Made by a program: the position numbers and the translations under genes. A stretch of DNA of 64,000 nt from an uncultured Pseudomonadota bacterium (lineage in GTDB: Bacteria > Pseudomonadota > Gammaproteobacteria > Steroidobacterales > Steroidobacteraceae). The stretch's first letter is position 1, and every line of letters begins with the position of its first letter. Location: positions 78,226 to 142,225 of the forward strand of contig CADEFJ010000001.1 of NCBI GenBank assembly GCA_902826575.1. Reading direction: 5' to 3'. Shown in pieces: positions 56,448 through 62,239 of the stretch. The notes beneath the pieces are model-generated. The model was not told where the DNA came from. It made no database searches and saw only the letters and a program-made list of their open reading frames with translations.

Positions 56448-56864
56448 GTGCCGATCCAGATCAAGCGCCGCAGTGGCCGCAAGTTGGTCACCTTGCCAAA
56501 CGGGGAAACCATACCGGTCAGACCGTGGGACGTGGCGCCAACCTCCATCCAGCTGGCGCTGGCCAGGGGCCATAGGTGACTGGCCATACCGGAATCGGGG
56601 GAGGCGAAATCATTGATGGAGATCGCCACACGTTAAGGAATAGACAACAGCTACGTCAGCCGGATGGTCAGCCTGACCACGCTCGCCCCCGACACCGTGG
56701 CGGCCATCCTGGATGGCGCATTGCCGAATCACATCACGCTGTTTGATATGGCGGTTGATCCGCAAGCGCTGTGGGGTAAGCAGCGGGAGCGAGTCGGCCT
56801 TCCGCGTTGGAAATCAACCCGCGTCTGCAGGCGACCACGGACCACCTGCCTGCCAGCGGGCTGA
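56448..56864 (+). pseudogene. Broken HTH-type protein of a mobile element
   Basis: One frame reads IQIKRRSGRKLVTLPNGE, then RPWDVAPTSIQLALARGHR, then NSYVSRMVSLTTLAPDTV, then LPNHITLFDMAVDPQALW, a composition I know from small DNA-binding proteins encoded after serine recombinases in integrative elements. Two in-frame stops interrupt it: TGA 56577–56579 (where Trp is expected after GHR) and TAA 56634–56636. The gene is therefore inactive. Similarity fades after RERVGLP (about 56800), and the last 17 codons overlap the convergent toxin gene. Confidence 0.65.
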
Positions 56865-57731
56865 AAGCGCCGCATTGGCATTGGCCGCCTTGATGACGGG
56901 CAGCATGAACGCGACCAGTGCCGCAATGACGTCATTCAGCGCCAGCGCGTCCAGGCGGTTCTTTCTCAGGAAGGCCTGCCACTGCGCCTGCTTCTGCGCA
57001 TCTTGCGCAAACGCATCGGTAAGGCCGAATGGGGCCTCTCCAGCCAGAGCGGTCTTGCGTCGATCGAAGGTCGCCCGAATCGCTTGGCGAAGGGTGTCGC
57101 CATCGAAGTCGGTGTGCCGCGCCAATATCCACAGGTCGAAATAATCCTTCATGCGACTATTGGCGATGCCAAGGGACGATAGCGCCTCGAATTTCTCGGC
57201 CACCACGGTGTAGCGCGGATAGACACGCAGTCTTGGTGCCGCGAACTCCGACAGCATGACGGGGTATTCGACATCCTCTGGGCCAGGCGTGACGGCGTCG
57301 CCGAATCCAATATCGATCTGAATCTGGCAACGCGCGCCATCGATCACGCCAGGCAACATGACGCGCACACCGGCGTAGTTCGCCTCCTTGCGGATTTCTG
57401 CGGCGTGCACGGTGTCGGGTTGAAACATTACGCCGTCGTGCGTTTCGATCGCGCAGATTTCCCTGAAGACGGCTTCGATGTGCGGCAACTCCGCCGAGCC
57501 GAATCCCAAGAAATCGGCGTCCCTGGTTGGGCGATGTGGGATGTCGAACCACAGGTCAAACAACAAGGCACCCTTGAGCAGAAACTGATCCGCGTGCTGC
57601 GAGATGCTGATGCGGTACAGCAGCCGCTCAATCGCATAGCGGGTAAGGACCAAGTTGAAATCCTGCTTGGTCTCGCGGGCGCGGTTGAGCAGACGGGCAC
57701 GTACTGATGCCGCCACGTTTCTTTCATTCAT
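56814..57731 (-). CDS. AbiEii-type nucleotidyltransferase toxin
   Basis: A 305-residue toxin of the type IV AbiE system. NTase motifs: KGALLFDLWF with RPTRDADFLG (motifs I–II, about 55–80), CQIQIDIGFGD (motif III, about 147–157), and KFEALSSLG with SRMKDYFDLWIL (motif IV region, about 195–225). ATG 57731 overlaps the antitoxin stop (ATGA). AbiEii blocks growth by modifying tRNA 3' ends in characterised relatives, giving phage abortive infection. Base composition here is less GC-rich than around it, which fits horizontal gain. Confidence 0.9.
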   Translation of the reverse strand: MNERNVAASVRARLLNRARETKQDFNLVLTRYAIERLLYRISISQHADQFLLKGALLFDLWFDIPHRPTRDADFLGFGSAELPHIEAVFREICAIETHDGVMFQPDTVHAAEIRKEANYAGVRVMLPGVIDGARCQIQIDIGFGDAVTPGPEDVEYPVMLSEFAAPRLRVYPRYTVVAEKFEALSSLGIANSRMKDYFDLWILARHTDFDGDTLRQAIRATFDRRKTALAGEAPFGLTDAFAQDAQKQAQWQAFLRKNRLDALALNDVIAALVAFMLPVIKAANANAALSARWQAGGPWSPADAG

Positions 57732-58327
57732 GGCAGGCTTTCCATGTAGGGGCGCATCACATTGGCCACGCGGCACAGCGTGGCATAGCGCCAGAGTTCG
57801 TCCATGCTCGCGCGCTTGGCTCGCCAGGCTTCCTTCAGGGCTTCCATCGCCACATCGAGGCCGATTTTGTTGCGAAACTTGAAGCAGTCGGCCACGGTGC
57901 GAGCGACGTTGGTCACGCGCACGTTCACGCCATCTATCTGGTGTTCTTCGATGCCATCGGTCAGTGCGGCACCCGAGAAGCGCACGATGCGCAGTGGCGG
58001 GTAATCTATCTTCGGTGCACGCGCCTTGTTCGGAATGGCGAGCCAAACCTCGAATGGCGACTGTGTGGTGAGGTCGTGCACCCGCAGCGCTGACAGCAGG
58101 CAGACGATGGCTTGCGGGTGTTTGCGTGCCACCTCTGCGAGCGTGCCATGCTCGGATACGCTGCGATCAGGACGGGCATACAGACCCCGACCTACGCGGG
58201 TAAGCAGACCCTGCCGAACCAGTCGCGTGAGGGTGACACTGGGCAGACCCAGCGCATCGAGATCGCGCGAGCGTATGAGGCCGCGCTGGGCGGCGAGATC
58301 CAGAATGGTCTGATGCGAACTTTTCAT
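57728..58327 (-). CDS. AbiEi-family antitoxin/repressor
   Basis: A 199-residue antitoxin. The N-terminal winged helix (about 1–60; ILDLAAQRGLIRSRDLDALGLP, LTRLVRQGLLTRVGRGLYARP) is the AbiEi_4 wHTH; the C-terminal domain (about 65–190) has VCLLSALRVHDLT and the NVARTVADCFKFRNKIGLDVAMEALKEA region. ATG 58327 was chosen; ATG 58345 (six residues longer) is the alternative. Upstream, GGTCAATATATACC (58359–58372) is AT-rich and partly symmetrical and could be its promoter/operator, because AbiEi represses its own operon. Confidence 0.9.
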   Translation of the reverse strand: MKSSHQTILDLAAQRGLIRSRDLDALGLPSVTLTRLVRQGLLTRVGRGLYARPDRSVSEHGTLAEVARKHPQAIVCLLSALRVHDLTTQSPFEVWLAIPNKARAPKIDYPPLRIVRFSGAALTDGIEEHQIDGVNVRVTNVARTVADCFKFRNKIGLDVAMEALKEAWRAKRASMDELWRYATLCRVANVMRPYMESLP

Positions 58328-58381
58328 GCCGTCATGATGTTGCATTAAGTCGGTAGTGGTCAATATATACCTACAAAACAC

Positions 58382-58636
58382 AACACAGGCGGTTTCCTCT
58401 GCTATCCGATGCCCCAATCCAATCGTTTGACTCGTCCGCGCGTAACCCTTTGATCTGTAAGGCGCTGACTTATGGCCTTTGCGGACTTCGGGCCAGTTCC
58501 AGGGAGCGAGGCCGGAGCGAGGAATGGCCAGGAGAGAGTGGAATGCGGTGCGAAACTGGCTGACGGGCCGGGCGGCTAAGACTGCAGGATTCCTCAGGAA
58601 CCCACACGAGTACGCGGGAACTGGCGCGATCGGGCA
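58382..58636. other. Intergenic stretch without recognised gene
   Basis: About 255 bp between the AbiE promoter and the ssrA terminator. I see no credible coding frame; the plus-strand frame through it runs on into ssrA and is an artefact. It may be residual island DNA. Confidence 0.5.
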
Positions 58637-58672: not shown

Positions 58673-58681
58673 TATTGGTGG
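58673..58681. other. Possible attachment-site half at the ssrA 3' end
   Basis: TATTGGTGG includes the complement of the tmRNA CCACCA end. The same 9 bp occur at 56249–56257, on the far side of the element remnant and AbiE pair. tmRNA 3' ends are frequent integration targets. Confidence 0.3.
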
Positions 58682-59027
58682 AGGCGGGGGGAATCGAACC
58701 CCCGTCCGCAAGTCCTAGACTTCAGGATCTACGTACGTAGCTCTCTCTTTGTTTCTCGCCTCACGCTACCCGAGGAGCAGGGAAGACGCTCGGCCAGCGA
58801 CAGTGACTCTTAACGGAACCACCCCGTCGCACGGTGGCCCGCGATCCTATGAGCGCGTCCCCTGATGCAGTGGCATAGGCACCAGCTGGTCAGAGGTCAG
58901 CCGTGATTAGGCGGCTAGAGCGTAGTTGTCGTCGTTGGCAACTAAGTTTTGCACAGTGATTAACGAGGGCCATGCGCCTCGGTACGCCCCTGAAGGTTCG
59001 CAACCCACGTCGAAACCGGTCGCCCCC
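58676..59027 (-). ncRNA. ssrA: tmRNA (transfer-messenger RNA)
   Basis: A 352-nt one-piece tmRNA. The 5' end GGGGGCG pairs with CGCCTCC before ACCA to form the acceptor stem; the T-arm GGGGGTTCGATTCCCCC is at the 3' side. The tag reading frame is 58939–58907: GCC AAC GAC GAC AAC TAC GCT CTA GCC GCC TAA, giving ANDDNYALAA. It rescues stalled ribosomes with SmpB. It lies 38 bp after panE, two genes from smpB, all on the minus strand. Confidence 0.97.
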
Positions 59028-60986: not shown

Positions 60987-61309
60987 AGCGCTGTACGGTG
61001 GTTCATGCGCTCGCGCAAGCGCAGTGGCTGTGGACGCTCGAGCTGCCGCAGGACGCCACGGTGGCGGACGCGCTGCGAGCCGCGCGTGTTGCCGCCGGCC
61101 AGTCGGGCGATGCAGGCAAGTCCCGCAGCGCAGGACAGCCCGGCATCGACTGGGATGACGCGACGGTGGGCATCCATGGCGTCGTATGCGGGCGCGAGCT
61201 GCGATTCGCCGACGGCGACCGCATCGAAATCTACCGGCCGCTCACGGTGGATCCGCGCGCCGCGCGGCGGACACGCGTGGCAAATGCGCGGCGGGCAGGG
61301 CGGCGTTAG
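60983..61309 (+). CDS. rnfH: RnfH-family ubiquitin-like protein (RatB)
   Basis: A 108-residue β-grasp protein of unknown function. ATG 60983 overlaps the ratA stop (ATGA). The family pattern is seen at DATVADALRAARV, IDWDDATVGIHGVVC and RIEIYRPLTVDPRAARRTR, the last being the RnfH C-terminal signature. It has an extra Ser/Gly-rich loop at about 36–48. Its stop overlaps bamE by 4 bp, convergently. Confidence 0.92.
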   Translation: MKRCTVVHALAQAQWLWTLELPQDATVADALRAARVAAGQSGDAGKSRSAGQPGIDWDDATVGIHGVVCGRELRFADGDRIEIYRPLTVDPRAARRTRVANARRAGRR

Positions 61310-61764
61310 CCGCCGGGAGTTGCGCTGTCGGTCGGGGGCGGAGCCTGCTCGGGCGCCGGGGCCTGCGCGGGCGCGCGCTGCGTATCCTCGGTGGGCAATG
61401 CCTGCGGCGCGGGCGTCGTCGGCACCAACACCGGCGCCAGCACGTTGATCTTCTCGATCCGCGCGACCTTGTCGTCCTCGAACCAGACGGTGAGCCTGCG
61501 CCGTTCGGGTTCCTGGATGCGGCCACGCTTCAGGTAGTAGAGGTAGTCCCAGCGATTCTCGTCAAACGCATCGGGCACCATCGGCGTGCCGAGCAGGAAG
61601 CGCACCTGGCTGCGTGTCATGCCCTCCTGCAGTTTCGCCACTGCATCGGGGTCGAGGTAATTGCCCTGCTGGATCGTCATGCGATAGACGCAGCCGCCAG
61701 CGAGTCCGGACAAGGCGATGGCGAGCACGGCAAGCCGTGCGAGTCGGGTCAATGGTGGTTGCAT
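61306..61764 (-). CDS. bamE: Outer-membrane assembly lipoprotein BamE
   Basis: A 152-residue lipoprotein of the BAM complex. A signal peptide leads to LAGGC (Cys25). The SmpA/OmlA domain has IQQGNYLDPDAVAKLQEGMT (first half of the fold), FLLGTPMVPDAF and RWDYLYYLKRG. The C-terminal about 45 residues are Pro/Ala-rich (APAQAPAPEQAPPP) and longer than in E. coli BamE. Divergent from fur, as usual. Confidence 0.95.
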   Translation of the reverse strand: MQPPLTRLARLAVLAIALSGLAGGCVYRMTIQQGNYLDPDAVAKLQEGMTRSQVRFLLGTPMVPDAFDENRWDYLYYLKRGRIQEPERRRLTVWFEDDKVARIEKINVLAPVLVPTTPAPQALPTEDTQRAPAQAPAPEQAPPPTDSATPGG

Positions 61765-61849
61765 GGGGCGGATACGGGGGATAATCGAGCAATGATAACC
61801 GGGAGCACCTGATTGTGAAGGCAAAGATCTTCGCAAGGCCGGCCTGAAG

Positions 61850-62239
61850 GTGACCCTGCCGCGACTCAAGATCCTCGAAATCCTCGAGTCAGGCACGCCG
61901 CGCCACCAGAGCGCCGAGGGCATCTACAAGCAATTGCTCGAATCCAACGAGGATATCGGCCTTGCCACCGTGTACCGCGTGCTCACGCAGTTCGAAGCCG
62001 CGGGGCTCGTCGTGCGCCATCACTTCGAGAACGGCATGGCGGTGTTCGAACTGAACGAAGGCGCGCACCACGACCATATCGTGTGCCTCGATTGCGGCAA
62101 GGTCGAGGAGTTCATGGAAACCGGCATCGAGGAGCGCCAGACCGCGGTGGCGACCCGGCTCGGGTTCGAGATCCGCGATCACTCACTTGTTCTTTACGGG
62201 CGTTGCCGCCGCGCGAACTGCCCCTCGCGCAAGTCGTAG
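61850..62239 (+). CDS. fur: Ferric uptake regulator Fur, apparent N-terminal frameshift
   Basis: The first in-frame start is GTG 61850, giving 129 residues that begin MTLPRLKILEIL. Conserved Fur sequence continues upstream in the same frame (KDLRKAGLK before the VTLPR) but has no start codon before a TAA at 61796. GTG 61815 with GGGAG 9 bp upstream looks like the ancestral start; it is one nucleotide out of frame and stops at TGA 61845–61847, 2 bp before GTG 61850. Metal ligands HHDH and CLDC (VCLDCGKVEEF) and the C-terminal CRRANC are intact. Either a deletion, a sequencing error, or reinitiation explains it. The end overlaps recN by 57 bp. Confidence 0.85.
   Translation: MTLPRLKILEILESGTPRHQSAEGIYKQLLESNEDIGLATVYRVLTQFEAAGLVVRHHFENGMAVFELNEGAHHDHIVCLDCGKVEEFMETGIEERQTAVATRLGFEIRDHSLVLYGRCRRANCPSRKS

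Follow-up and report, generated by a model that had tools for sequence, protein, structure and literature searches.

Genes and features at the fur locus

The window, by which we mean the whole stretch of 64,000 nucleotides analysed here, forms the end of its 142,225-base contig in a draft genome of 3.11 Mb (225 contigs, 89% complete, 2.76% contamination). The genes around fur are arranged in the order smpB (minus strand), a RatA-like gene (plus), an RnfH-like gene (plus), bamE (minus), fur (plus) and recN (minus); bamE, fur and recN were scanned against family models, and the other three were named from their translations. The locus was compared with the six other genomes of the genus, called congeners below, and the fur locus is present in four of them. 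The features that describe fur and its start are the following.

61306 to 61764, minus strand: bamE, the divergent neighbour, with a probable ATG at 61764 (the stretch 61306-61767 was scanned and scored 63.1 bits against the BamE model, under the cut-off of 93)
61796 to 61798, plus strand: in-frame TAA, the upstream boundary of the Fur frame
61801 to 61805, plus strand: GGGAG, probably the ribosome-binding site; CCGGGAGC of the window recurs unchanged in all four congeners
61814 to 61816, plus strand: TGT, at the codon where all four congeners with the locus have a TTG start codon
61815 to 61847, plus strand: out-of-frame mini-frame of 10 codons, starting with GTG and ending with TGA at 61845-61847
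61817 to 62236, plus strand: Fur body in frame (EGKDLRKAGLKVTLPR...), 193.2 bits to NCBIfam NF006999 against a cut-off of 146
61850 to 62239, plus strand: longest Fur-frame ORF that opens with a standard start codon, here GTG; 129 aa, without helix 1, 175.8 bits
62183 to 63892, minus strand: recN, the convergent neighbour, whose 3' end overlaps fur by 57 bases (62183-62239)

In congeners G001 and G004, too, the matches to fur and recN overlap one another.

On sequence grounds, the body read from 61817 is a canonical Fur. The equivalog cut-off is passed by the frame from 61817 and even by the shorter frame from GTG 61850, the body matches PDB 1mzb with an E value of 4e-52, and its identity to the four congeners is 92, 91, 88 and 84%. 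Residues H84, H85, D86, H87, C90 and C93 are invariant in 29 aligned Fur sequences chosen from the 110 loci described below, that of the window included, and we take these HHDH and C..C residues to be those of the metal sites. Compared with Fur as represented by NF006999/PRK09462 and 1mzb, the gene in the window has the same body, keeps the metal-site residues, and is adjoined by bamE and recN as in G001 and G004, but differs in having no in-frame start before the conserved N-terminus.

The Fur frame runs uninterrupted from 61799 until its stop codon at 62237; its first codons after the TAA at 61796 are CCG GGA GCA CCT GAT TGT GAA GGC AAA GAT. As the original prediction had stated, no ATG, GTG or TTG was found in this frame between that TAA and GTG 61850. 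This GTG is the earliest standard start and lies within KVTLPR. Near-cognate codons were also sought (CTG, ATT, ATC and ATA), and none lies between the TAA and CTG 61844, the earliest of them, which is already within the conserved Fur N-terminus. The letters coding for the complete DNA-binding N-terminus are present, with no in-frame start ahead of them from which it could be translated. The competing frame was likewise confirmed: GTG 61815 follows GGGAG at a spacing of 9, runs for its ten codons to the TGA, and leaves GTG 61850 located 2 nt downstream of that stop.

Fur starts in congeners and in other loci

A total of 110 fur loci were examined, chosen as the best-scoring ones rather than as a full census. 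Thirty of them, the window included, came from a set of 59 whole genomes, of which 58 gave a match, and the other 80 were the best of 585 loci in a named collection. The start region was located by its motif in 106 loci (the motif is absent in L082, L103, L105 and L112), and removal of three duplicates left 103 distinct loci. An in-frame ATG, GTG or TTG lies upstream of the motif in 102 of the 103, and the sole exception is the locus in the window, so that the missing start is more than chance. A non-standard start shared among relatives is ruled out by the same count. The four congeners, which serve as the comparison with close relatives that had been proposed, do not share the arrangement either, and where the window reads TGT, each of them has a TTG codon. 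A narrow search of the literature by title found no description of this fur arrangement.

The window and its four congeners do not differ in how far the first Fur codon lies from the TAA, and all have the same TAA-CCG-GGA spacing; the window therefore has no net insertion or deletion relative to them. Compared column by column, the start in the window differs from that of the congeners by two adjacent substitutions. The original prediction had claimed a frameshift, with one base missing after GTG 61815. It holds in that fur has no normal start where the relatives have one, whereas the missing base is not borne out; a single lost base as the direct reading was set aside given the congener TTG at the same codon and the equal spacing, and is kept among several two-step routes. 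A gain of one base and a loss of one base within a few bases could yield the same letters as two substitutions, and since the two histories are indistinguishable, a one-base frameshift may have been the last step. Moreover, both single-substitution intermediates would already be without a start, while the gain-and-loss routes can retain one until the last step. A frameshift as the final event, by mutation or by error, is thus still a live reading.

The two congeners without a fur match are G003, where the contig ends fall inside bamE and recN, and G006 (78% complete), where neither bamE nor recN was found. Loss of fur across the genus was considered and is unsupported, because the first of these assemblies is broken within both neighbours and neither of them was found in the second.

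Selection on fur and the origin of the missing start

The Fur body is under purifying selection. Paired with each of the four congeners, the window gives a dN/dS for this body of 0.067 (nearest congener), 0.067, 0.132 and 0.150, values that fall within the range of 0.050 to 0.182 seen for the six pairs among the congeners, and the differences private to the window are distributed as 2, 4 and 15 over codon positions 1, 2 and 3. Private differences in the gene body are most numerous in the window, 21 as against 5, 10, 10 and 19 in the congeners; over the 51 bases that precede the first sense codon, the window has six, as against 1, 0, 1 and 2. In each of the five genomes the eleven codons from the start site to GTG 61850 specify EGKDLRKAGLK, and all 13 differences found in them over the four comparisons of the window with a congener are at third positions. 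Only one change in these codons is private to the window, also at a third position; none is found at the 22 first and second positions, where 2.4 would be expected had the codons been unconstrained all along the branch (P about 0.09). So little mark on the first eleven codons is a weak sign that any loss of the start is young.

Purifying selection on the body, together with the absence of the arrangement from every relative examined, leads us to view the lesion as either an assembly error or very recent. We are therefore fairly confident that the window holds a normal chromosomal fur, situated between bamE and recN as in the congeners, whose start codon has become unreadable by an error or a very recent event. 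Recent mutation or a small sequence error is most likely here, ahead of a new way of making Fur. Loss of a start codon and small assembly errors in draft genomes are ordinary and of a known kind. The window shares with such cases that one gene is hit, that the body and the relatives are intact, and that the arrangement is unconserved; it differs in that two adjacent bases are changed with no net change of length, which is less simple.

An assembly or base-calling error, by which the true fur starts normally in frame and the draft is wrong by a base or two, is a strong possibility, if short of probable. The draft state of the genome, the selection on the body and the occurrence of the arrangement in a single one of the distinct loci all speak for it. 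No single wrong letter, however, converts a start codon to TGT, and an error would have to consist of two wrong letters side by side, or of a single-base indel added to a true difference of one base. The remainder of the window also argues against it. We audited 37 coding-like ORFs, each against at least two congeners, and found no convincing frameshift among them. A start column with a Shine-Dalgarno-like match, common to the congeners, was available for 21 of the 37, and as several of these columns are internal, the audit is a modest control. The window has no start at four of the 21 columns, namely that of fur (codon 6) and three that lie deep inside genes (codons 68, 109 and 304), and we judge fur to be the only one of the 21 ORFs without its gene start. 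Six frameshift candidates suggested by split alignments comprise three upstream of the recN or bamE starts and three in frames judged non-coding. In an earlier and broader audit, 12 of 50 frames had been flagged, including that of fur; most of the others were judged, as a group, to be antisense or to have another shared start further on, and such broader audits are noisy because antisense frames of G+C-rich DNA are counted as genes. Since the window otherwise looks well assembled, an isolated error at this place is not the obvious default.

The same clean surroundings favour a real, recent loss of the start codon in the lineage or strain, after which no Fur, or a little truncated Fur, would be made; we regard this as quite possible and hold it tentatively. 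It agrees with the lack of private changes at the first and second positions of the early codons, a weak sign at the P value given above. On the other side, a real loss through two adjacent substitutions would be an uncommon event, which also counts against our overall reading; with both one-substitution intermediates start-less, a young loss would need a tandem change or a pair of indels. Furthermore, no loss of fur is shown in the congeners, given the state of G003 and G006 described above.

A Fur-family paralogue might soften the effect of a real loss. The fur locus of the window is present once in the assembled genome, and no second Fur proper was found in this draft; the only other Fur-domain match is an Irr-like protein (L002, 1486-1860, contig C31) with 126 bits to the IrrA model, below the cut-off of 150. 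A weak Fur-family match is present in each of the six congeners as well. Irr is best known in alphaproteobacteria. If the loss is real, this would be a natural loss of the fur start caught before decay of the gene body, in a lineage carrying an Irr-like regulator, and it would let one ask whether Irr-type control replaces Fur outside the alphaproteobacteria. If the lesion is an error, the rule of taking the start codon alone would yield a Fur of 129 residues without helix 1 that still passes a curated cut-off.

As assembled, the start region would have a simple consequence under our preferred reading of a normal fur with an unreadable start. The standard start codons close to GGGAG are out of frame, and a ribosome recruited by GGGAG would initiate at GTG 61815 and terminate after ten residues. 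Inefficient internal starts, GTG 61850 among them, would then be the sole source of Fur, which would be without helix 1 and, in the case of GTG 61850, also without the minor-groove lysine. With only truncated Fur from inefficient starts, Fur control would be largely lost.

Alternative initiation, frameshifting and flanking sequences

It is improbable, in our estimation, that the region is a working device giving low or regulated amounts of Fur, whether through reinitiation after the mini-frame, a start at CTG 61844 or GTG 61850, or -1 slippage on a tetramer within the mini-frame. Two further features bear on this.

61823 to 61826, plus strand: tetramer A_AAG, a motif of the -1 slippery type, read in the frame of GTG 61815
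61847 to 61849, plus strand: AAG for lysine 11, outside the GTG 61850 product

Reinitiation is suggested by the 2 nt that separate the stop of the mini-frame from GTG 61850, and leader-peptide or reinitiation-coupled translation is a known kind of system. As in such systems, the window has a short frame ending just ahead of an in-frame GTG, but this layout is absent in the four congeners. The leader GTG at 61815 is present in none of them and its frame is not conserved, and the codon at 61850 is GTG in one and GTC in the other three. The product is a further objection. Residues G9, L10 and K11 are invariant in all 29 Fur sequences chosen from the 110 loci, and helix 1 comprises residues 2-7 in the predicted structure (mean pLDDT 87.6), so that reinitiation at GTG 61850 would give a Fur of 129 residues without helix 1 and without K11. 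From the shared K-V-T-x-x-R pattern, K11 of the window probably corresponds to Lys15 of Magnetospirillum Fur. This lysine contacts DNA in the minor groove, and the K15A protein binds its operator about tenfold more weakly (977 vs 85 nM) and has lost repression in vivo (PMC4506495). The suggestion that coupled reinitiation could still supply a Fur lacking its first helix is consequently tenable in principle, but the restart codon is not conserved and its product would be without the DNA-contacting lysine.

Initiation at CTG 61844 would retain K11. CTG can serve as a weak start, and an AAGG sequence ends 5 nt ahead of this in-frame codon.

For the tetramer, PMC4066793 states that Z_ZZN-type -1 frameshifting occurs in the IS1 and IS3 families, and that in E. 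coli, with the IS3 pseudoknot downstream, A_AAG surpassed all other tetramers in efficiency. Tetramers without a pseudoknot gave a mean of 0.147% against 0.112% for controls without a motif, a mean that excludes G_GGG and does not refer to A_AAG alone (PMC4066793). Slippage on A_AAG without a stimulator would thus be expected to stay near background. In the window, the RNA after A_AAG shows no unusual structure (z 0.46; of 200 shuffles, 127 equalled or exceeded it in stability) by a fold that excludes pseudoknots; no stimulator was found with this fold, and none of the four congeners has the 0 frame. The window therefore has in common with programmed -1 frameshifting of the Z_ZZN type the A_AAG in the GTG 61815 frame, and differs from it in the ordinary structure, in the unconserved 0 frame, and in that the tetramer falls within the conserved Fur codons GGC AAA GAT.

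One more feature overlaps the altered start on the opposite strand.

61792 to 61819, minus strand: promoter-like TTCACA-16-TATCAT directed toward bamE, whose first hexamer covers the altered start bases

This sigma-70-like match agrees with the consensus at 10 of 12 positions, and one such match was found where 0.2 are expected from shuffles of the window. None was found at the same place in the four congeners, among which the sole promoter-like match (L005) is on the fur-ward strand. We consider the window-only match toward bamE as a lead only. It would be a very remote prospect that the change is both real and selected, with weak fur expression through reinitiation or slippage, an improved bamE -35, Fur repression traded for more BamE, and perhaps the Irr-like protein as a backup.

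Farther upstream, one gene away from smpB, lies a tmRNA gene.

58676 to 59027, minus strand: tmRNA gene, with the tag ANDDNYALAA

The stretch beside it, from 53.9 to 58.6 kb, had no match in the congeners and may therefore be an island at the tmRNA gene. No clear attachment pair was found at this stretch, where the repeats are short and in two or three copies. A pair of 16-nt repeats, 88% alike, has one copy within the tmRNA gene. Two adjacent ORFs in the non-syntenic stretch (56814-58400, minus strand) resemble, judging by their translations, what is presumably a toxin-antitoxin pair of the AbiEi/AbiEii type.
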